Source: Rhizobium sp. Q54 (GTDB taxonomy: Bacteria > Bacteroidota > Bacteroidia > Flavobacteriales > Flavobacteriaceae). Taken from it: a DNA stretch of 12,009 nt. This document shows, in pieces, positions 3,038-12,009 of the stretch. The stretch spans positions 1 to 12,009 of the forward strand of contig CALPLL020000038.1 in assembly GCA_943324395.2 (NCBI GenBank). Direction: 5' to 3'. The notes under the pieces were generated by a model, which saw only the letters and a list, made by a program, of their open reading frames with translations, had not been told where the DNA came from and did no database searches. A program made the position numbers and the translations under genes. How positions within the stretch are numbered: position 1 is the first letter of the stretch; every line of letters begins with the position of its first letter.

Positions 3038-4375
3038 TTAATCTTCTACTTTTTCCTTTTTCTTATTAACGTTGGAAGCATGACGACCGCTACCTCCAGC
3101 ATTATCTATAATCCCTTTTTCAGGACTTAAAGTATTTAGCGTTGCTTTTAATCGGTTATAAGCATCGTTCGATTCTTTATTTTCAGAATAATTAGAGACT
3201 AATTTTTCTTCAAATGGTGAATTACTCATATCAAAAAGCTCTCCTTCACGATTTAATTTCCACTTCGCATCTCGAACATACCATTTATTTCCTAATTCGA
3301 TGAATATCCATTCTCTAGGATTTCCTTTCTTTCCAAATAATTGGGGAAGAAAGCTACGACCATCAATAACATTTTTAGTAGGTAATTTTGCCCCAGCTAA
3401 ATCAGCAAACGTTGGTAATAAATCGGTAGAGTCAATTAATAAATCACTTGTTTTACCACTGCCAATAACACCAGGCCAATTGGCAATTGTTGGAACTAAA
3501 CTTCCACATTCTAACATGGTTCCTTTTTTTCCAGATAAAGCTTTTCCTCCTATTGTGCCTCTATTGGCATACTGACTTGCGGTTCCATTATCACCCATAA
3601 AAATAATTAATGTGTTTTTACGTAATTTTAAATCATCCAACGTTTTCAATAATTTTCCAACTAACTTATCCATATACGCCGTATTATCTTCATATAAATC
3701 ACTGCCAGGTTTACTATCCGGAGTTCGTTGAATTACAGCGTGAACATGAACCATTGAGTAATATAAAAAAAATGGTTTGTCTTTATTGGTAGTAATAAAG
3801 TCAACCAAATGATCGTGCATTAAATCGGGCATATAGGTTTGCGCATCCAGTTTCTTGTTTACACCATTTTCAATATAATTTTCGGATTTCTTTTTTTCTG
3901 TTGACCAATAATCACCACTTCCAGCAAATGTTAGGTAATCATCGAAACCAAAATCACCTGGAGTTTTAGAAAATTGACTCCATTTTCCTACTAAAGAAGT
4001 AGTATATCCAGCAGGTTTTAAAACAGACGGAATTAGAACTTCATTTTCAGGTTTAATTTCTCCAACCATATCTTGATTTACAGCACCAGTTCTAAAGCCA
4101 TAACGACCTGTTAAAATCATTGCTCTTGAAGGGCCACACAAAGGCGCTGTATATCCGTGATTAAATCGGATCCCTCCTTTAGCCAATTGATCAATTATTG
4201 GAGTTTTGTTTAGATCGGAACCGTAACAACTTACGTCTCCAATTCCTAAATCATCAGCCAAAATGAAGATAATATTTGGTTTTTCAATAACTTTTTTAGC
4301 GGTAGCTTTTTGAGCATAAAAACTAGAACCTGTCAAAAGTGTTAGTGTAATAAAGAGCAATTTAAAATTTCTCAT
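3038..4375 (-). CDS. Secreted sulfatase, type I formylglycine-dependent (S1 family), CGPSR active site
   Basis: A 445-residue periplasmic sulfate-ester hydrolase. A type I signal peptide covers about residues 1-21 (cleavage before Gln22). The alkaline-phosphatase-like sulfatase fold begins at PNIIFILADD; Asp41 and Asp42 are the first calcium ligands. CGPSR at 80-84 is the C-x-P-S-R site whose Cys80 becomes formylglycine, followed by AMILTGR. GDNG with Asp262/Asn263 supplies the remaining metal ligands, and a conserved Lys lies at about 283-284 in the GKKG segment. His210 or His212 is likely the sulfate-binding His. One oddity: the usual GKWHLG motif reads GKWSQF at 130-135, so the Lys is kept but the adjacent catalytic-site His is Ser133. 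The C-terminus ends in a charged Lys/Glu-rich tail. It is the last enzyme gene of the run, 14 bp after the PL38-like gene. Sulfatase identity is secure; subfamily and substrate are not. Confidence 0.93.
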   Translation of the reverse strand: MRNFKLLFITLTLLTGSSFYAQKATAKKVIEKPNIIFILADDLGIGDVSCYGSDLNKTPIIDQLAKGGIRFNHGYTAPLCGPSRAMILTGRYGFRTGAVNQDMVGEIKPENEVLIPSVLKPAGYTTSLVGKWSQFSKTPGDFGFDDYLTFAGSGDYWSTEKKKSENYIENGVNKKLDAQTYMPDLMHDHLVDFITTNKDKPFFLYYSMVHVHAVIQRTPDSKPGSDLYEDNTAYMDKLVGKLLKTLDDLKLRKNTLIIFMGDNGTASQYANRGTIGGKALSGKKGTMLECGSLVPTIANWPGVIGSGKTSDLLIDSTDLLPTFADLAGAKLPTKNVIDGRSFLPQLFGKKGNPREWIFIELGNKWYVRDAKWKLNREGELFDMSNSPFEEKLVSNYSENKESNDAYNRLKATLNTLSPEKGIIDNAGGSGRHASNVNKKKEKVED

Positions 4376-4389
4376 ATTTAAAATTTGTA

Positions 4390-5607
4390 TTAAAAAGTAA
4401 GTTCGTTGATTTCTGATTTATAACTTTTAAAATCTATTTTTTTAGCAATTTCTTCGTATTCAGAATTATTGTATTTGCTTGAAGCAAATTTTAAAATTTT
4501 GATTGTTTCACCATAACTTATTTTTTGAATTTGTTCATATTCCCAAACTTTTTCATTTTTCAAATATGGAATAATAAATTGAAGTGCATTTTTCATGTTT
4601 TTACCTTCACTTATTTGATGATTCCAAAGGGATACATTTACATTTTCAGCCAACTTTGCAATAAGATAATAACCATACATGTTCATATTTACATAATTCC
4701 AAGATTTTGTTCTAGCTAATTCTAATGGTTGACTTCCGTCAGATTTCATTTGGCTTTCCATTCTGTTTTTAAAGATTTCAATTTCTTTTAAAGCGATTTC
4801 TGGTTTGTCAATAAATAAAGCCATGGCAATAACTTGCTCGCTATAAAAGGTACCGTGATTATTTTTCGCTTTTGCTTCGTCTTGACCAATTGGACTTTCA
4901 AGCATCCAAGTTAAATAATCCGAAAACCAATTTTTTAATGACTTATGGTCTTCTTTTGACCAATTTGGTGAGTTTTGAATTAATATTGCCGCATCTAAAA
5001 TACGATATATATCTCTAGTTTCTATCAACCCTGTTCCACGGCCAGAACTTAATCCTGGTATTCCTTGTGCAAAATTTAGGTGTGGGTTTTGACGAGTTTC
5101 AGGGTTTATAAACCAAACTTTAAGAAGTTTAGATGTGAAATTAGCGTACTTAGCCTCTTTAGTGAAATAATAGGCTAAAGCCAATGATAACGTGGCATCT
5201 TCAACTTTATCAATTTCTTGTGAATCTGAAATATCGTAATATGTTGGATTTCGAAGTCCGTCTTTTTTAATATAAGGCAAACCGTCAGGCTTGGTTGGAT
5301 CTGGCCACCAATAAGGACCTGTACTCATATAATCGTGTTTATCACCGCTTGGAGGAGTTTGTTTTTTATCCATAACAGAATAAACAATCGCATCATTAAC
5401 CAATTCATCTGCTTTTTTTAGTAACGATTTTAAAGCAACCACTTTATCTTTATTATTAGATAAAATCAATTTGTAATTAGTTGAAAGCGTTTGCCCGTCA
5501 ATAGAAAGTGTTTTTGGAATACCCTGATCTAATTTGCCTTGAGCAAAAATAGAAGTGCAAATTCCAAAAACCACTATTAGAAATAGATACTTTATAGATT
5601 TATTCAT
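4390..5607 (-). CDS. Secreted polysaccharide lyase of the alginate-lyase superfamily, PL38/PL5-like
   Basis: A 405-residue predicted periplasmic lyase with an alpha/alpha-toroid fold (Pfam alginate_lyase type). The signal peptide covers about residues 1-22 with cleavage before Gln23; Cys17 is not in a lipobox. Family marks are the aromatic segment MSTGPYWWPDP at 94-104 followed by DGLPYI, an SSGRGTGLIETRD stretch near 187-199, and NNHGT at 249-253. In PL5 and PL38 enzymes an Asn-His pair neutralises the uronate, and a downstream Arg and Tyr complete catalysis. Here Asn250, His251, Arg299 and Tyr305 fit these roles. Known relatives cut mannuronate- or glucuronate-containing polymers by beta-elimination. 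Its position between two sulfatase genes suggests a sulfated or partly desulfated uronan rather than plain alginate. The superfamily call is strong; the choice of PL38 over PL5 is from memory of motif and length, without a search. Confidence 0.85.
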   Translation of the reverse strand: MNKSIKYLFLIVVFGICTSIFAQGKLDQGIPKTLSIDGQTLSTNYKLILSNNKDKVVALKSLLKKADELVNDAIVYSVMDKKQTPPSGDKHDYMSTGPYWWPDPTKPDGLPYIKKDGLRNPTYYDISDSQEIDKVEDATLSLALAYYFTKEAKYANFTSKLLKVWFINPETRQNPHLNFAQGIPGLSSGRGTGLIETRDIYRILDAAILIQNSPNWSKEDHKSLKNWFSDYLTWMLESPIGQDEAKAKNNHGTFYSEQVIAMALFIDKPEIALKEIEIFKNRMESQMKSDGSQPLELARTKSWNYVNMNMYGYYLIAKLAENVNVSLWNHQISEGKNMKNALQFIIPYLKNEKVWEYEQIQKISYGETIKILKFASSKYNNSEYEEIAKKIDFKSYKSEINELTF

Positions 5608-5645
5608 TATTGTTTTTTAAATTAATTTGTAAAGATATTCTTTTT

Positions 5646-7247
5646 CTAGTCACCTGAATTTTTCCAATCCAAAGTGTCACCTTTCAATCTTCTTAATGCT
5701 TCAGCTTCGGTTTTAATTCCTTTATCTCCTTGATCCAACATCCATTTTTTCAATTCAGATAATAATTTAATTTTAACAGTTACCAATTTAGCATCGTCGG
5801 CTAAGTTATCTAATTCATAAACATCTTTTTTAATATTATACAACTCAAATTCTGGTCGGTTACGATACAGTTTAGCGTGTTCAGCTTGTTTTGGAGTTAC
5901 ATTTGTAGCCCGCAACCAACTTCCATATAATTTATTTTTTGGTTGAGAACCTGAAGATAAAAAGGGCTCGTTGAATTGTAAATTCCAAATTAATTTATAC
6001 TCATGATCTTGAATGGAACGAACCGGGTAATTATCGGAACCATTTTTTATTCCTCTTGTAGTATGAACCCCATAAACATAGTCACGAACTTCTTTTGGTT
6101 TGCCATTAAATGAAGCGAAAAAACTCTTTCCATCTAATTTCATTGTTCCTTCTTTGTTTCCACGTAAAGTCTCAGGATTTCCACCTGCAGCTTCAAAAAG
6201 TGTTGGAACTACATCAATATATTGAGTTAAAATACCCGTTCTTGTATTCGGTTTTATCACTTTCGGCCAACGAGCAATAAATGAAGCTTTTAGCCCCATA
6301 TTATAACACGTCCATTTCGCAAAAGGCATTGAACTTCCGTGTTCACTTGCAAATAGGAAAAGGGTATTGTCTTTCGTTTTTTGATTTTCAACCATTCTAG
6401 TACAAGTGCCAACTAGACTATCCATGTAAGTAATTTCAGCATAGTATTTCACTAATTCCGAACGAGTTTCTTTGGTGTCAACCATGTAGGGAGCTATAGT
6501 TATTTTATTAGCATCATACTGTTTTACATCACCTCTATTCCATGGTCCGTGTGGTTGATTAGATGCAACAATTAGTAAATAGGGCTTTGAAGTATCTTTA
6601 TTAATCCATTTTTCTGCGTCAGCCAATTCAACATCTGGTCCTTTTCCATTATCACTATTTCTACCTCCTAAATATTCAAATGGAAAATTGGCCATTGGAG
6701 CATAATGTTGTTTTCCAATTAAGGCAACTCGATAACCTAATTTTTTAAAATGCTGAACTACTGAAATTACATTATCATATACTTGCGCGTGATTAGGGTA
6801 ACTTCCATTTTTTACAGGAAACAATCCAGTATATAAACTTTGACGAGTAGGTCCGCACATTGCTGTAGCATTATTCATATTATCAAATGTCAAACCTTCT
6901 TTGGCTAGTTTAGCTAAATTAGGAGTGTGAACGTCTTTATTTCCATAAGGTTCGCAATCAATTGAAGTCATGTCGTCTGCAATAAAAAACAAAATATTTG
7001 GTTTGGTAACCGATTCTTTTATAGTATTGTTTATAACTAATTTCTGATTAGAATAGGATGCAATAAGCGTATTTTTATTATTTGTTTCCTTAGGAAATGA
7101 TGAAGCTAAATCAGTGTATTGCTTTTCTAAATTGGCTCCCGTTTGTTGTACGTTATTTTCAAAAGAAGCATTCGAGAGTTTAAAAGTGAAAGCTGAAACA
7201 AGTGCTAAACCTGATAAACCTAAAAGTAGAACAATTTTATTTTTCAT
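5646..7247 (-). CDS. Secreted sulfatase (S1 family, S1_8/N-sulfoglucosamine-sulfohydrolase-like), CGPTR active site
   Basis: A 533-residue exported sulfatase. A hydrophobic signal sequence spans about residues 5-20. It is followed by an Asn/Ser/Lys-rich segment to about residue 80 with no recognisable fold, so the sulfatase domain starts late, at PNILFFIADD (Asp91/Asp92 metal ligands). The active site is CGPTR at 131-135, with Thr in place of the more common Ser; Cys131 is the formylglycine precursor. GKQH at 178-181 keeps the catalytic Lys and His in place of GKWH, and His233 in NQPHGPW is a likely sulfate-binding His. The second metal site reads SEHG with Glu302/His303 instead of the usual Asp-Asn or Asp-His. 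This variant is one I associate with the SGSH-like subfamily. It lies 18 bp after the DUF1961 gene and 38 bp before the lyase. Sulfatase identity is secure; the subfamily is tentative. Confidence 0.9.
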   Translation of the reverse strand: MKNKIVLLLGLSGLALVSAFTFKLSNASFENNVQQTGANLEKQYTDLASSFPKETNNKNTLIASYSNQKLVINNTIKESVTKPNILFFIADDMTSIDCEPYGNKDVHTPNLAKLAKEGLTFDNMNNATAMCGPTRQSLYTGLFPVKNGSYPNHAQVYDNVISVVQHFKKLGYRVALIGKQHYAPMANFPFEYLGGRNSDNGKGPDVELADAEKWINKDTSKPYLLIVASNQPHGPWNRGDVKQYDANKITIAPYMVDTKETRSELVKYYAEITYMDSLVGTCTRMVENQKTKDNTLFLFASEHGSSMPFAKWTCYNMGLKASFIARWPKVIKPNTRTGILTQYIDVVPTLFEAAGGNPETLRGNKEGTMKLDGKSFFASFNGKPKEVRDYVYGVHTTRGIKNGSDNYPVRSIQDHEYKLIWNLQFNEPFLSSGSQPKNKLYGSWLRATNVTPKQAEHAKLYRNRPEFELYNIKKDVYELDNLADDAKLVTVKIKLLSELKKWMLDQGDKGIKTEAEALRRLKGDTLDWKNSGD

Positions 7248-7265
7248 TTTATTAATTATTTTGTA

Positions 7266-7991
7266 TTATTTATTATGTTGTATTTCCCAAACTTTAAAAT
7301 TTCTGTAAGCAAAATGGGTCCACTGCATTTGTCTAAATCCAATTTTTCCGTCTTCTAAAACTTTACCGTATTTTACACCATTATCAGTCCAATCGATAAC
7401 TTTTCTGTTGTCAATATAAAGTGTGATATGACCTTCATTTTTAACTAATTTCATTTTGTGAATCGCGGTAGATTGAACAGGAATACCTATTTCACCTGTT
7501 TGAACTAAATTAAAACCCTTATTTTTTCTCAAATTAGCCGTTTCCCGATTTGGATTATCGCGACCATTTGCATAATAAGAAATATGGTAATCGTTCATAG
7601 CTCCTTTTGTATAATCAGTAAATATTCCTGTTGTTCTTTTTGGCATAGAAGGGTCAAAAATACTTTCACCTTTCAGCCCTTTTGCACAGAAAAAAACAAT
7701 GCATAAACCAGCATCGATTTCTTGATTTTGGGCTTCCCATTCAGCAATAAAACTACCTGGAAAATCTTGTGGACACCAAAAAACATGATGACCTTCTTCA
7801 TTTGGCGAATACATTTTCAACCAATTATTATTAAATTCAATTTTGGCAGGACCTTCCAAAACCCAATCTTTGACAGATTCTACATTGGACAACGAATTGA
7901 TATATATCAATTTTCCTTTATTCACTTCTTGTGAAAAGTTATTAAAAGTTACTAAAAATAGTAAAGAATAAAATATTTTATCAATTCTCAT
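7266..7991 (-). CDS. Secreted DUF1961 (YesU-like) beta-sandwich protein, function unknown
   Basis: A 241-residue protein with a signal peptide of about 20 residues (cleavage before Gln21). The whole mature part looks like a DUF1961 domain. The marks are VFWCPQDFPGSF at 70-81 followed by an aromatic EWE, AKG and IFDPSMP motifs, a SYYANGRDNPNRETANLRKN region, and a C-terminal GFRQMQWTHFAYRNFKVW. The Bacillus subtilis member, YesU, belongs to the rhamnogalacturonan-utilization gene cluster and has a galectin/concanavalin-like fold with no assigned activity. The many conserved Trp, Arg, Asp and His residues suit carbohydrate binding or catalysis. Here it lies between a cupin-like gene (8 bp upstream) and a sulfatase (18 bp downstream), so a periplasmic role on the same glycan is likely. 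Whether it is an enzyme or a lectin is open. Confidence 0.82.
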   Translation of the reverse strand: MRIDKIFYSLLFLVTFNNFSQEVNKGKLIYINSLSNVESVKDWVLEGPAKIEFNNNWLKMYSPNEEGHHVFWCPQDFPGSFIAEWEAQNQEIDAGLCIVFFCAKGLKGESIFDPSMPKRTTGIFTDYTKGAMNDYHISYYANGRDNPNRETANLRKNKGFNLVQTGEIGIPVQSTAIHKMKLVKNEGHITLYIDNRKVIDWTDNGVKYGKVLEDGKIGFRQMQWTHFAYRNFKVWEIQHNK

Positions 7992-7999
7992 TATTTCAA

Positions 8000-8668
8000 T
8001 TATAACTTAATTTTATATTCAATAACAATATTAAACAAAGGGATTTTGCTCAAGTTTTTAGTTACGTGCACCATTGGTTCAGCATATTTTACAGTGTTTG
8101 CCACTTGCATTCCCGTACCTGGTTTCCCATTCGGATGGTATCTTGGATCTGTGAGTTGAACATCGTTTAATCGAACCACAACTCGTTGCGCATGACTATG
8201 TAATTCTCTTGTATCACCAGGATTTAAACGTTCTTCAAAAACTCGAAATTCATTATCTTCGTATATTATTTTGTTTTTTGTAGGCTCAACCCACTCGCTC
8301 GGTTTTGCTAATTGGGGATGGTCTTTTTTTAATGCAATTTCAAAATAGGATCCTGTGGGTATTTCGTAAAATTCATTTTCATTAAAAACAGCAATTTCTC
8401 CACGTTTAATTTTAATTTTTCCACGGCTACTTTTAAACTTGATATTTTCCAAAGCAGCAATTATTCTTGAACCAATATTTGGAGTATTCGAAGACGAAAA
8501 TTGTGCTCCATTTCGAACCACTTTAAAATAAGGGTTGTCAATAGCAATCGAATCTTTATTTGCAAAAGCGTTATTATCAATATTTACAGTTGATATCGAA
8601 TTACTATTTGCAAAAGCAAAATTAGCCGTTAACGCAAACAAAAAAATAGAATACAGTTTTATTTTCAT
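8000..8668 (-). CDS. Secreted cupin-like protein of unknown function
   Basis: A 222-residue exported protein. I start it at the ATG at 8668: this gives a clean signal peptide (MKIKLYSIFLFALTANFAFA, cleaved near Asn21) and a 9-bp gap after the upstream stop. A longer reading from a TTG at 8677 adds three residues and would abut the previous stop codon. The sequence looks like two beta-barrel cupin-type repeats. The N-terminal half (about 45-115) has no evident metal site. The C-terminal half has ELHSHAQRVVVRLN with His157 and His159 and a later His201, resembling a cupin metal site. An EWVEPTKNKIIYEDNEFRVF stretch joins the halves. I do not recognise a characterised family. A KdgF-like action on unsaturated uronates made by the neighbouring lyases is imaginable, but KdgF is a short cytoplasmic protein and the similarity is only at fold level. 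Confidence 0.72.
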   Translation of the reverse strand: MKIKLYSIFLFALTANFAFANSNSISTVNIDNNAFANKDSIAIDNPYFKVVRNGAQFSSSNTPNIGSRIIAALENIKFKSSRGKIKIKRGEIAVFNENEFYEIPTGSYFEIALKKDHPQLAKPSEWVEPTKNKIIYEDNEFRVFEERLNPGDTRELHSHAQRVVVRLNDVQLTDPRYHPNGKPGTGMQVANTVKYAEPMVHVTKNLSKIPLFNIVIEYKIKL

Positions 8669-8677
8669 CTTAATCAA

Positions 8678-9787
8678 TTAATTAGAAACGCATCGAAAAC
8701 CTAAATGCTCCATTGAAGAATCAGCAGAACTTTTCATTCTTGCTGAAACCCTATAACCACTGCAATAAGACTCGTTACATAAAAATGATCCACCTCGCAT
8801 CACTCTTTTTTCAACCAAAGGCTCATCTGGGTCATAACTTTTTGAGGGGCCTTTTGGATTGAGGGTTACTTTTATTTTTTTAAATGTATCGTAATACAAA
8901 TTGTTGTATTTATCGGAACACCATTCCCAAACATTCCCTGCCATATCAAACAATCCAAAACCATTAGCTGCAAATGATTTTACTGGTGCTGAGCCATTAA
9001 ATCCATCGCTTACTTCATTTTTATAAGGAAAATTTCCTTGAAAATAGTTGCAATGGTATTTTCCTTCATCAACTTTTTGATTTCCCCAAGTGTAAACACT
9101 TTTAGTTAATCCTCCTCTAGCTGCAAATTCCCATTCCGCTTCGGTTGGCAAGCGTTTTCCAGCCCATTTACAATAAGCATTTGCATCGTCCCAGCTAATA
9201 TGAACCACCGGAAAATTATCTTTTCCTTCAATATTACTGTCTTTTCCTTGCGGATGTTTCCAATTGGCACCGTGAGACCAATTCCACCATTGACTATAAT
9301 CTTGCAAACTCACTTCTCCAGTTGTTGGAACAAAAACTAAAGAAGCTGCTTTTAGGGTCTCCCCATCAGGTTTTGGTGTATCTAAAGGCAATTGTTTTTT
9401 TAATTCTTCCCAATTGATATCTTTTTCAGCAGTAGTTACATAACCAGTTGCAGCAACAAATTTGGCAAATTGTGAATTGGTAACTTCCGTTATATCCATG
9501 AAAAAGCCATTCAATTTTACTTGGTGTTTTGGGAATTCATCTTGACGTGCTTGGTCATTATCGCCACCCATACTGAAGGTTCCACCTGGAATCCAAACCA
9601 TCCCTTCGTGATTTTTTAGAGTCAAATTGGGTTTGCTTTTTGGTTGCGCTTTTTTTAATCCAAAACGACTCGGTATTTTTGAAGTACAACAAGATTTAAC
9701 AGTATCTTTAATTTGAAGTAAATTAACAGTTTCTTTTGCCTGAACTTTAAAACCAAAAACCAATAATATAAGTGCTATTTTATACAT
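8678..9787 (-). CDS. Exported formylglycine-generating enzyme (SUMF1/FGE-sulfatase family), sulfatase activator
   Basis: This protein should oxidise the active-site Cys of the three neighbouring sulfatases to formylglycine, using oxygen and a copper-bound cysteine pair. It has 369 residues, with a signal peptide over about 1-17 (VQA/K) and a linker containing Cys33-Cys34. The SUMF1 domain runs from about 62 to 367: MVWIPGGTFSMGG, then DITEVTNSQF, VVHISWDDANAYCKWAGKR, LPTEAEWEFAARGG, GLFDMAGNVWEWC, and RGGSFLCNESYCSGYRVSAR. In the last motif Cys337 and Cys342 match in position and spacing the copper-binding catalytic pair of human and Streptomyces FGE, so this is probably a true FGE and not one of the many SUMF1-fold proteins lacking both Cys. 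The domain ends with LGFRC. It sits 9 bp after the PL6-type gene. Export implies maturation of sulfatases in the periplasm after Sec translocation. Confidence 0.92.
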   Translation of the reverse strand: MYKIALILLVFGFKVQAKETVNLLQIKDTVKSCCTSKIPSRFGLKKAQPKSKPNLTLKNHEGMVWIPGGTFSMGGDNDQARQDEFPKHQVKLNGFFMDITEVTNSQFAKFVAATGYVTTAEKDINWEELKKQLPLDTPKPDGETLKAASLVFVPTTGEVSLQDYSQWWNWSHGANWKHPQGKDSNIEGKDNFPVVHISWDDANAYCKWAGKRLPTEAEWEFAARGGLTKSVYTWGNQKVDEGKYHCNYFQGNFPYKNEVSDGFNGSAPVKSFAANGFGLFDMAGNVWEWCSDKYNNLYYDTFKKIKVTLNPKGPSKSYDPDEPLVEKRVMRGGSFLCNESYCSGYRVSARMKSSADSSMEHLGFRCVSN

Positions 9788-9796
9788 TTTATTATC

Positions 9797-11275
9797 TTAA
9801 TTATTTTTTATCCAACTCACACCAACATCTTTCTTTTTTACTATCCAATTTGGATTAAATTTAGTAATTTCTGAATCACTTAATTTAATATTATGAATTG
9901 AGAGCCGTTGATTGATTTCATCCAAAACTGAAGGATCAACTTTTGTTTTCACCTCATTTTTTTTATTACTAAACGGAATCTGCTTTAATTTTATCAAAGA
10001 AAATCCAGGTTCTGATGTTTTTCCGTTGGTAAAAATATTATCTTTTATTGTAAATGTAGCATTCAAATCGGTTAATTCATAAGGAGAATCATTATCTCCT
10101 ATTGAATTTATTATTGTATTTCCTATTATAAAAACATTTTTAGGAGCAACTTTTGGGGTTTTCACGTCTTTGTTTACAACACCCAATTTTATTGCAGGAC
10201 CATAAGAATTTAGAACAGTATTATAGGCTACAATGGCATTATCAGCAGGATAATAACCATTTAATGATGAATCAACTAATCCATCCATAATTGAAATCGG
10301 AAATTTTGAGTTTCCTTTTCCTCCTTCAATATTTTCTAAAAAATTATTAAAAACAGTATTGTTAGGATTAATAATTCTAATTCCACCGCTTTTGTTTCTG
10401 CCAGATTTCCCATCAAAATAATTGCCATAAACGAAACATTTCTGGCCGTGTCGAATCACCATTGCGCCATCATTTCCTATAAAAGTATTAAATCTATAAA
10501 TGTTATCCCAACTTTTATTGCTTATAATTTCTGCTTCTATTCTCTCGTCTTCAAAATAATTGTATTCAATTAAATTAAATCCGTGTGTGAAAGATGTGGT
10601 GCTTGTTCCAACTCGAATTTGCTCGCCACCATTTGAAGAAAAAGTTCTATATCCAAAATAATTATGATGAATATGATGGAAAGAGGACGGGGCAACATCG
10701 CTTCCAGGAACATAACCGCTTTCTTGTTTATATTCAATTACTAATGTTGGCCCAGCATTTAACTTTCCTTCAAAAGTACAATTATTAACTTCATTATAGG
10801 TTCCCACTAAATTAACGAAATAATTCTTTTTATCACTTTCCTCAGTTGAAGAATAATTAATTATAGCACAATTTGTTAATCGGCAATGATTTGCTTCGCT
10901 ATTTATTTTTTTACCTTTAGATTTAAAATCAATTACGTTTTGATTGGTATCTAAAGTACAATTTCCTTGAAATGATAATCCTTCAACTACAAGAAAATTA
11001 CCGCCAATAAATAATTGAGAATTTCCAGAGAATATTACCTTACCAGGCTTTTGGGCTCTAAAAGTGATTGGTAGTTTTGAAGTTCCGTTATTTAAAGGAC
11101 TAAAATCAATTTTAATATCAGAATAATTGCCTTCCTTCCAAATAATGATATCACCTGGATTGACTTTTGTTATAACACTTTCAAATTCAGTTTTTGATTC
11201 TACTAAATATTCAGTAGCTTTCACTTGTAAAGTAAAAACCCAAAATAGTAGAAAAACAAAAATCGAATTTTTCAT
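9797..11275 (-). CDS. Secreted chondroitinase-B/PL6-type polysaccharide lyase
   Basis: A 492-residue lyase with a right-handed parallel beta-helix. The signal peptide covers about residues 1-20 (VKA/T). The helix region has repeated short NxF/NxI coils typical of PL6, such as NHCRLTNCAI, HNYFGYR, EYNYFED, RFNTFIGN and YGNYFDG. NGGEQIRVGTS at 215-225 is a family mark. EAEIISNK at 247-254 gives Glu247 and Glu249 as calcium ligands and Lys254 as catalytic base; Arg275 in MVIRHG follows 21 residues later. This matches the Glu243/Glu245/Lys250/Arg271 spacing of Pedobacter heparinus chondroitinase B. PL6 enzymes cut alginate or dermatan sulfate by beta-elimination. The length suits the single-domain class, with a C-terminal extension from about 440. 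It starts 1 bp after the upstream sulfatase stop, showing tight coupling. Family and catalytic residues are clear; alginate versus a sulfated uronan is undecided. Confidence 0.92.
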   Translation of the reverse strand: MKNSIFVFLLFWVFTLQVKATEYLVESKTEFESVITKVNPGDIIIWKEGNYSDIKIDFSPLNNGTSKLPITFRAQKPGKVIFSGNSQLFIGGNFLVVEGLSFQGNCTLDTNQNVIDFKSKGKKINSEANHCRLTNCAIINYSSTEESDKKNYFVNLVGTYNEVNNCTFEGKLNAGPTLVIEYKQESGYVPGSDVAPSSFHHIHHNYFGYRTFSSNGGEQIRVGTSTTSFTHGFNLIEYNYFEDERIEAEIISNKSWDNIYRFNTFIGNDGAMVIRHGQKCFVYGNYFDGKSGRNKSGGIRIINPNNTVFNNFLENIEGGKGNSKFPISIMDGLVDSSLNGYYPADNAIVAYNTVLNSYGPAIKLGVVNKDVKTPKVAPKNVFIIGNTIINSIGDNDSPYELTDLNATFTIKDNIFTNGKTSEPGFSLIKLKQIPFSNKKNEVKTKVDPSVLDEINQRLSIHNIKLSDSEITKFNPNWIVKKKDVGVSWIKNN

Positions 11276-11276
11276 T

Positions 11277-12009
11277 TTATTTTACTTGAGTTGCTAAGAA
11301 TTTTAGCATTTTCGATTTCAAATCTTTTGCAACCGATTTGTATTCTTTGACATCTGCTACATTAACGGTTTCGTTCGGGTCTTTTTCATAATCGTACAAT
11401 TCGGTACCAACAATTAAATCAGAATTAAAAGGCTTGTTACTTCTGAAATCATTGGTCATCCAAATAGTGTAACGGTATCTTTTATCTCTTAAAGAATAAC
11501 CCATCACTTTTGATGATGCATATCCTTGACGCTCTGTTTCAGAACCATTTCCACTTCTAGGATATTGACTAATCGAATAGTCCTTAACTGATTTAGCGGA
11601 TTTATTGATTAAAGGTAACAAACTTTTTCCATCTAAAGTTTCAGGGATTTTCACACCTGCTGCATCACATAATGTAGGAAATATATCAACGAATTCTGAA
11701 GGAGCACTGGTTACTGAAGGTGCAATTCCAGGAACTGAAATTATCATTGGAGTTCGAGTTGCTTGTTCAAAATTAGAGTGTTTACACCAAAGATTATGAT
11801 CTCCAAGGTGCCAACCATGATCTCCCCAAAGAACAATTATAGTGTTTTTTATCAATCCTAATTCATCTAATTTATCCAATAGTTTCCCAACTTGAGCATC
11901 AGTGTAAGATACGGAAGCGAAATAACCATGAATCAATTCTTTTTGCTTTTCTAAAGGTAAAGTTAATCCGAAATCTTTTTGATCCGTGAAAGAAACTAAT
12001 GGTGGAATA
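11277..12009 (-). CDS. Sulfatase, iduronate-2-sulfatase-like (S1_7-like), N-terminal part beyond window edge
   Basis: The last 243 residues of a sulfatase whose N-terminus, including the formylglycine Cys site, lies past 12009. An in-frame TTG at 11936 is internal, not a start: the frame reads on upstream as IPPLVSFTDQKDFGLTLPLE to the edge. The segment YFASVSYTDAQVGKLLDKL leads to WGDHGWHLGDHNLWCKHSNFE, the strongly diagnostic block of iduronate-2-sulfatase-type enzymes. Its Asp-His pair provides metal ligands, and the Lys of CKH is the usual sulfate-contacting Lys. Then follow TRTPMIISVPG, the EFVDIFPTLCDAAGV segment, LDGKSLLPL, and the terminal ELYDYEKDPNETVNVAD common to this group. Family members remove 2-O-sulfates from uronic acids, or other sulfates in algal PULs. 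The stop is 1 bp from the start of the PL6-type gene. Confidence 0.9.
   Translation of the reverse strand, partial: IPPLVSFTDQKDFGLTLPLEKQKELIHGYFASVSYTDAQVGKLLDKLDELGLIKNTIIVLWGDHGWHLGDHNLWCKHSNFEQATRTPMIISVPGIAPSVTSAPSEFVDIFPTLCDAAGVKIPETLDGKSLLPLINKSAKSVKDYSISQYPRSGNGSETERQGYASSKVMGYSLRDKRYRYTIWMTNDFRSNKPFNSDLIVGTELYDYEKDPNETVNVADVKEYKSVAKDLKSKMLKFLATQVK

Follow-up and report, generated by a model that had tools for sequence, protein, structure and literature searches.

The 12,009-base contig CALPLL020000038.1, analyzed here over its whole length (the window), carries a run of sulfatases, polysaccharide lyases, and a formylglycine-generating enzyme (FGE) beside a SusC transporter. With a probability of about 0.68, we read the window as the central part of a Bacteroidota polysaccharide utilization locus (PUL) predicted to act on a sulfated, glucuronic-acid-rich polysaccharide (gluco-, ido-, or galacto-configured uronate). 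The substrate class is likely, the exact polymer is unproven, and plain alginate is an unlikely substrate. The reading draws on the lyase families of the window, on the uronate pathways encoded in the same locus in relatives, and on the distribution of PL7 lyases among genomes of the genus, taken to be Flavobacterium.

The window is the center of a 29-gene locus

Open reading frame calling and Pfam/NCBIfam profile searches revealed nine genes in the window, all on the minus strand. In transcription order, they encode the C-terminal 243 amino acids (aa) of sulfatase S1_C, the lyase PL6, FGE, a bicupin, a DUF1961 protein, sulfatase S1_B, the lyase PL38, sulfatase S1_A, and the first 968 aa of SusC. 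By rising coordinate, the intergenic gaps between neighbors measure 131, 14, 38, 18, 8, 9, 9, and 1 bases, as in a single operon. The SusC/RagA TonB-dependent transporter (positions 3 to 2906, cut by the contig end; TIGR04056, 692.3 bits) is directly followed by SusD in relatives (PF07980 in L009:19013-20611), which marks the locus as a PUL of the SusC/D type; in the MAG of the window, no SusD was located beside this SusC. Because the window spans an entire contig (C38) of a metagenome-assembled genome (MAG; 237 contigs, 1.80 Mb, 65.1% complete), it stops on either side where the assembly breaks off, and the end coordinate given in the original prediction is no biological boundary.

Flanking genes were read from six relatives: G001, G002, G003, and G006 cover both sides (G001 and G002 stop short of kdgK), and G005 and G008 cover one. 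Representative proteins supplied the family assignments, and most labels in G003 follow from matching length, position, and sequence start to them. The full PUL, present in G003 (approximately 42 kb, summed by hand) and G006, comprises 29 genes on one strand. Its order in G003 starts with kdgK, DUF386, eda, D-mannonate oxidoreductase, uxuA, uxaC, a major facilitator superfamily permease, U559, and a hybrid two-component sensor. It continues with GH88, GH2, PL38b, S1_E, S1_D, U606, PL6b, S1_C, PL6, and FGE, and ends with the bicupin, DUF1961, S1_B, PL38, S1_A, SusC, SusD, kduI, a kduD-like gene, and DUF4861. The locus thereby holds five S1 sulfatases, two PL38, two PL6-like, and two weakly PL29-like proteins. 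Beyond DUF4861, in the one relative scanned there, lies a convergent block with an esterase family protein, weak polysaccharide-lyase-like proteins, and a TonB receptor.

The MAG of the window carries the upstream half on two other contigs, with the stretch from eda to the first part of S1_D on C9 and, on C146, a further piece of S1_D, U606, PL6b, and the beginning of S1_C. The complete upstream genes on these contigs are 74 to 96% identical to the reference genes (coverage, 0.99 to 1.00), and the three contigs are separate and unjoined. The cassette reported in the original prediction is real, with sulfatases, an FGE, lyases of two unrelated families, and SusC in one minus-strand run whose order recurs in 18 loci. 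Its description as self-contained does not hold, as the window covers nine genes, two of them cut, of 29. The three sulfatases and two lyases counted in the window are indeed there; the third sulfatase is incomplete, and neither count extends to the full PUL, where the sulfatases number five and PL6 and PL38 are joined by PL38b, PL6b, and the two weakly PL29-like proteins.

Polysaccharide lyases

The lyase at positions 4390 to 5607 (minus strand; 405 aa; PF05426, 282.8 bits) matches seven distinct PDB sequences at an E value of ≤0.001, which comprise 3nfv/3nnb (3nfv, 270.2 bits) and the 8bdq/9fi series (226.6 to 231.7 bits). We take 3nfv to be a PL38 enzyme. The entry 8bdq was taken as BoPL38 because the H243/Y298 numbering agrees with that in PMC13169297. 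Residues H251 and Y305 of the lyase align with positions 243 and 298 of the 9fi1 chain, equivalent to BoPL38 H243 and Y298, the residues reported to abstract H5 (PMC13169297). Given these matches, the label PL5, which the original prediction had offered alongside PL38, was rejected, and PL38 fits best; the enzyme combines similarity to characterized PL38 members with the His/Tyr catalytic pair. Characterized PL38 enzymes include two glucuronan lyases and one enzyme active on hyaluronan and chondroitin (PMC13027841).

PL6 (9797 to 11275, minus strand; 492 aa; PF14592) pairs its family match with the catalytic Lys and Arg. Its residues K254, R275, and H276 match BcelPL6 K249/R270/H271, all three required in that enzyme (PMC6879350), and the site of the AlyGC R241A mutant. 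According to the same source, PL6 specificity is not reliably predictable from sequence (PMC6879350). PL6 is an accessory gene. It is present in 9 of 15 related loci with S1_C, while PL6b occurs in 15 of 18 loci. In a sample of 199 genomes of the genus, drawn evenly from a larger group with incomplete genomes kept, a close PL6 was found in 8 genomes versus 13 for cassette-type PL38.

Outside the window, U606 and PL6b carry sorting tails of the type IX secretion system (T9SS), and the N terminus of PL38b is lipobox-like. U559 reaches 84.0 bits with the BT3328 hyaluronan endo-lyase family, whose cut-off is 1100, and weak matches of this kind, far below the cut-off, recur in 17 of the 19 members of a U606/U559 alignment. 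BT3328 is presumably a PL29 enzyme, and U606 and U559 may be distant relatives of that family. The BT3328-like matches lean toward glucuronate polymers. U559 and the T9SS-tailed U606 are conserved proteins related to each other (L009:2154-3974, L050:7134-8813, and L054:5595-7274) and possibly represent a new lyase family.

Uronate routes and the distribution of PL7

Several enzymes of the full PUL exceed their curated cut-offs (in parentheses), namely UxuA with 590.8 (199.55), UxaC with 609.4 (387), D-mannonate oxidoreductase with 427.8 (281), and KduI with 440.4 (250) bits. GH88 matches PF07470 at 43.2 bits (cut-off, 26.6), and the nearest named family of GH2 is the beta-glucuronidase LacZ4, at 381.5 bits and below the cut-off of 950. 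The substrate of KduI is the unsaturated uronate of the threo series, which glucuronate, iduronate, or galacturonate yields; the product obtained from alginate is of the erythro series. UxaC, UxuB, and UxuA form the D-glucuronate route.

PL7, together with PL17, is the usual lyase partner in alginate PULs. In the genus sample, PL38 was detected at an E value of ≤1e-40 in 18 genomes, 13 of the cassette type (67 to 100% identity) and 5 divergent (35 to 52%). PL7 was found in 10 of the 199 genomes, including all five with divergent PL38 and none of the 13 with the cassette type, so that no cassette carrier in the sample shows the PL7 expected of an alginate degrader. It was also absent from all nine named relatives, in a search whose controls gave no match. 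As the carriers are often incomplete and kin, this split is a strong hint against alginate and not a test of independence. Together, the uronate genes and the PL7 distribution favor glucuronate, iduronate, or galacturonate chemistry over alginate.

Sulfatases and their maturation

S1_A (3038 to 4375, minus strand; 445 aa; PF00884, 187.4 bits) and S1_B (5646 to 7247, minus strand; 533 aa; PF00884) are S1 sulfatases of the formylglycine type, with PF00884 domains and the C-x-P-x-R motif as CGPSR at residue 80 and CGPTR at residue 131, respectively. The S1_C gene is incomplete in the window (11277 to 12008, minus strand; PF00884 and SGSH_C), where only its C-terminal 243 aa precede the contig end, without the catalytic half; the MAG has an N-terminal fragment with CGPTR on a different contig (C146, L055). 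The CGPTR motif is found in S1_C, S1_D, and S1_E of relatives and, in the MAG of the window, in S1_E and the N-terminal fragments of S1_C and S1_D.

A full-length S1_C orthologue (L009:5778-7406) best matches 6hhm (294.6 bits) and iduronate-2-sulfatase 5fql (260.9 bits), with 6hr5 at 124.8 bits, making S1_C S1_7- or iduronate-2-sulfatase-like. S1_B resembles SGSH and S1_8 enzymes (N-sulphoglucosamine sulphohydrolase 4mhx, 107.4 bits; S1_8A 9bb9, 102.1 bits). For S1_A, the top matches are steryl-sulfatase (172.3 bits), arylsulfatase A, and then the carrageenan S1 sulfatase 6prm (161.5 bits), scores that do not resolve its subfamily.

The FGE (8678 to 9787, minus strand; FGE/SUMF1 type; PF03781, 284 bits) has the cysteine pair C337/C342 near its C terminus, in GGSFLCNESYC, and an N terminus that by eye resembles a secretion signal. 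Bona fide FGEs are its best structural matches (6s07, 265.7 bits; sulfatase modifying factor 1 2aii, 259.4 bits), and PorK scores only 98.3. Each of the nine relatives has a single strong PF03781 match (276.5 to 285 bits), located inside the PUL; the remaining matches reach at most 184.3 bits. These weaker matches, mostly frames of 464 to 619 aa, are taken to be GldK/GldJ because of their length and the cross-matches of the family. A 258-aa frame in G008 (124.6 bits to PF03781) is without assigned identity. No radical-SAM maturase scored above the cut-off in any of the nine relatives (one match, 60.3 bits). The FGE of the PUL hence seems, on these profile matches, to be the sole detectable sulfatase maturase of the genome in the nine relatives.

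The number of PF00884 matches per relative ranges from 6 to 10; the PUL contains five of them in eight relatives and four in G008, where the contig is truncated. All nine have at least one match above the cut-off outside the PUL, so the FGE probably also activates the true sulfatases among these; FGE-independent branches of PF00884 may account for some. The cassette therefore does include an activating enzyme, as had been proposed, which is probably not reserved for the cassette. In the genus sample, a close FGE (E value of ≤1e-70) occurs in 77 genomes, and close FGEs are thus not unique to the cassette; at an identity of ≥77% it occurs in 14, 13 of which are the carriers of cassette-type PL38. 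In G003, a second group with three sulfatase matches lies outside the PUL (G003:C10:151089-155234), and the MAG of the window has further sulfatases on other contigs (G000:C148 and C215).

Bicupin and DUF1961

Between DUF1961 and the FGE lies a conserved bicupin of 222 aa that the original prediction had overlooked (8000 to 8668 from an ATG, with a TTG start at 8677; minus strand; no Pfam family). A model gives it two cupins, and its top rows include BacB and AerE. The C-terminal cupin has invariant HxH and H(X)3N motifs, and the N terminus is secretion-signal-like by eye. A KdgF-like identity was considered for it, KdgF being a uronate-linearizing protein of single-cupin fold. In many Bacteroidota loci, the neighbors of the bicupin are sulfatases or lyases; in two from Ignavibacteriae (L028 and L033), it forms part of a longer frame of 560 aa. 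Several distant loci (for example, L026, L031, and L036 to L043) have no PUL sulfatase or PL38 labeled next to the bicupin, so the bicupin is not exclusive to the PUL.

The DUF1961/YesU-like protein (7266 to 7991, minus strand; 241 aa; PF09224, 183.8 bits) has YesU (1oq1, 169.1 bits) as its best structure match and is present in 15 of 18 related loci. An extra 576-aa sulfatase takes its place in L019 (7387-9117); in L015, where it is missing, a DUF6250 protein (9025-9939) stands between S1_B and PL38.

Conservation of gene order

Scanning genome contigs of 84,980 species with the bicupin alignment yielded 41 loci, all titled MAG; as the bicupin served as bait, it is present in every one. Synteny was counted in the 18 loci with a bicupin identity of ≥63% (L003 to L019 and L023), with genes labeled at ≥45% identity; the 23 more distant loci (L020 to L022 and L024 to L043) have other gene sets and were kept apart. 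Among loci holding both genes, same-strand adjacency is complete for FGE-bicupin (17/17), bicupin-DUF1961 (15/15), DUF1961-S1_B (15/15), PL38-S1_A (16/16), S1_C-PL6 (9/9), and PL6-FGE (9/9), and nearly so for S1_B-PL38 (16/17) and S1_A-SusC (11/12). Such a recurring order indicates that the arrangement is more than chance. Loci end at contig ends, and the counts for outer genes are therefore lower bounds.

A rearranged, related locus in a Bacteroidales lake MAG (L030:2959-19082) holds PL6b, a PL6-like gene, three S1_C/S1_D-type sulfatases, the bicupin, PL38b, S1_A, and U606, which suggests spread across orders. The same locus also occurs in records titled Chitinophaga pinensis and Candidatus Nitrotoga (L004 and L011), whose bins or labels are probably wrong, since the locus is identical in kind.

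Proposed pathway and habitat

From these families, a route of degradation can be proposed. T9SS-tailed U606 (weakly PL29-like) and PL6b, with lipoprotein-like PL38b, would cut the polymer at the cell surface, and SusC/SusD would take up the oligosaccharides. In the periplasm, the FGE would oxidize the cysteine of the CGPTR/CGPSR motifs of the five S1 sulfatases to formylglycine, a reaction for which the motifs and the FGE cysteines are in place. The sulfatases would then remove ester groups, allowing beta-elimination by PL38 and, where present, PL6, and GH88 and GH2 would free unsaturated and saturated uronate. The permease would import the uronates, and KduI and the KduD-like dehydrogenase would process the unsaturated form while UxaC-UxuB-UxuA would process D-glucuronate. 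Both routes would meet at 2-keto-3-deoxygluconate for KdgK and Eda. The hybrid two-component sensor would govern the locus.

The hosts look like lake bacteria. The 41 locus titles include the lake names Baikal, Erken, Loc, and LacPavin, and the prefixes Jr, RE, and RH presumably refer to a Czech pond and the Rimov reservoir. The lakes sampled in one study include Erken and Loclat (PMC8121793). In the surface layer of the Rimov spring bloom, cryptophyte sequences made up the major part of the eukaryotic reads, and Flavobacteriaceae were named short-lived bloom specialists (PMC9878933). An exopolymer fraction of Cryptomonas tetrapyrenoidosa contains 36.0% galactose and 47.0% glucuronic acid, with no statement on its sulfation in the available text of the source, and C. 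obovata produces a sulfated fucose-rich polymer (PMC7884888). A freshwater algal exopolysaccharide is the likely natural source, and the PUL may target a polymer of the cryptophyte type. A more specific scenario is tentative and, on balance, doubtful: lakes might hold a substantial, undescribed pool of heavily sulfated, glucuronate-rich algal polysaccharide, such as a sulfated relative of the cryptophyte galactose/glucuronate exopolymer. Small-genome bloom Flavobacterium might eat it through the dedicated 29-gene PUL, with PL29-like U606/U559 and a periplasmic, metal-binding bicupin acting on unsaturated or sulfated uronate as new enzyme families.

Alternative substrates

Several observations weigh against a sulfated, glucuronate-rich target. 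PL6 is nearer to the alginate lyase AlyGC (184.3 bits) than to chondroitinase B (104.5 bits), and two of the five characterized PL38 enzymes listed in one paper cut alginate (PMC13027841). PL29 proteins, a GH88-type uronidase, and a Kdg/Kdu-type cluster are upregulated on alginate in Verruconatronum, a soda-lake isolate (PMC13274419), so none of these genes is proof against alginate. UxaC alone is also compatible with galacturonate. The KduD-like enzyme scores below the KduD cut-off (240.3 versus 338.85 bits) and above that of gluconate 5-dehydrogenase (445.5 versus 369 bits), which leaves the KduD label resting on its position beside kduI. KduI was not found in the MAG of the window, which is 65% complete, in a search without positive control. 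The 14th genome with a close FGE, G052, has the enzyme at 77% identity and no PL38 at an E value of ≤1e-40. Moreover, the literature searched, as far as its text was available, holds no documentation of sulfated glucuronan in lakes.

An alginate PUL whose sulfatases serve a co-occurring sulfated fucan would accommodate the alginate-active members of both PL6 and PL38 as well as the alginate-responsive genes of Verruconatronum. It is nonetheless improbable: PL7 is missing from every genome with cassette-type PL38 though detectable in the genus, the PUL itself encodes KduI and UxaC-UxuA-UxuB whereas alginate yields a monomer of the erythro series, and five sulfatases are interleaved with the lyases. 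A glycosaminoglycan (GAG) PUL acting on chondroitin or dermatan sulfate or a hyaluronan-like polymer, from animal or bacterial GAGs in lakes, deserves somewhat more credence and is still unlikely. RiPL38 cuts hyaluronan and, weakly, chondroitin sulfate (PMC13027841), and the GH88 and KduI/KduD-like genes, the iduronate-2-sulfatase- and SGSH-like sulfatases, and the sub-cut-off BT3328 matches of U559/U606 would all suit GAGs. However, no hexosamine catabolism family was found among the PUL proteins scanned, the ranking of chondroitinase B behind AlyGC fits poorly, and UxaC-UxuA-UxuB with GH2 hint at a larger supply of saturated glucuronate than the lysis of GAGs calls for.

For an ulvan-type locus, acting on a sulfated rhamnose-glucuronate/iduronate polymer, the uronate pathway would be compatible. 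The best PDB match of S1_C, 6hhm, is listed as "Arylsulfatase"; we take it to be the S1_7 ulvan sulfatase of Formosa, and the match to 6hr5 points the same way. The PUL proteins scanned gave no Pfam match to GH78 rhamnosidase, though, and the host clade is apparently lake plankton, which makes marine sources such as ulvan less likely; we consider this explanation improbable as well. The preferred reading keeps the sulfated uronic-acid polymer of the original prediction and narrows it to glucuronate/iduronate/galacturonate chemistry.

Comparison with known systems and significance

The Formosa agariphila ulvan PUL combines S1_7- and S1_8-type sulfatases with PL24/25/28/40 and GH78 for a glucuronate/iduronate polymer. 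The present locus is alike in its S1_7/S1_8-type sulfatases and lyases and differs in PL38, PL6, the PL29-like proteins, the bicupin, and the lack of a GH78 match among the proteins scanned. The chondroitin sulfate/hyaluronan PUL of Roseihalotalea indica is likewise from Bacteroidota and places a PL38 acting on glucuronate-containing polymers beside SusC/SusD (PMC13027841). That PUL is listed as SusC, SusD, PL8, PL35, PL38, CE19, and four hypothetical proteins, and the available text names no PL6, sulfatase, or uronate pathway (PMC13027841). Bacteroidota alginate loci, such as those of the NS5 group with PL6, PL7, and PL17, share PL6 with SusC/D (PMC9122927), whereas the carriers sampled here have no PL7 and the locus has sulfatases, FGE, KduI, and the UxaC-UxuA-UxuB route. 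The glucuronan lyases CUL-I and TpPL38A share the PL38 family and the glucuronate substrate; they act on unsulfated beta-1,4-glucuronan, and the available text describes no sulfatase partnership (PMC13027841, PMC9029943). An equivalent combination of five S1 sulfatases, two PL38, PL6, PL29-like proteins, FGE, bicupin, and two uronate routes was not found in the literature searched, within the text available. The PUL is a genuine, conserved, sulfatase-rich locus of an already known general kind.

Since no sulfatase maturase was detected outside the PUL in nine relatives, loss or transfer of this one locus could determine whether the cell has any FGE-dependent sulfatase activity at all. Research on sulfated polysaccharides and sulfatase-rich PULs has centered on the sea. 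If our reading is true, the PUL indicates a little-studied freshwater food source, and its enzyme set of PL38, sulfatases, and FGE would offer a means to find and map the polymer. If it is true across the apparent lake Flavobacterium, fresh waters would hold a comparable pool of sulfated-polysaccharide carbon.

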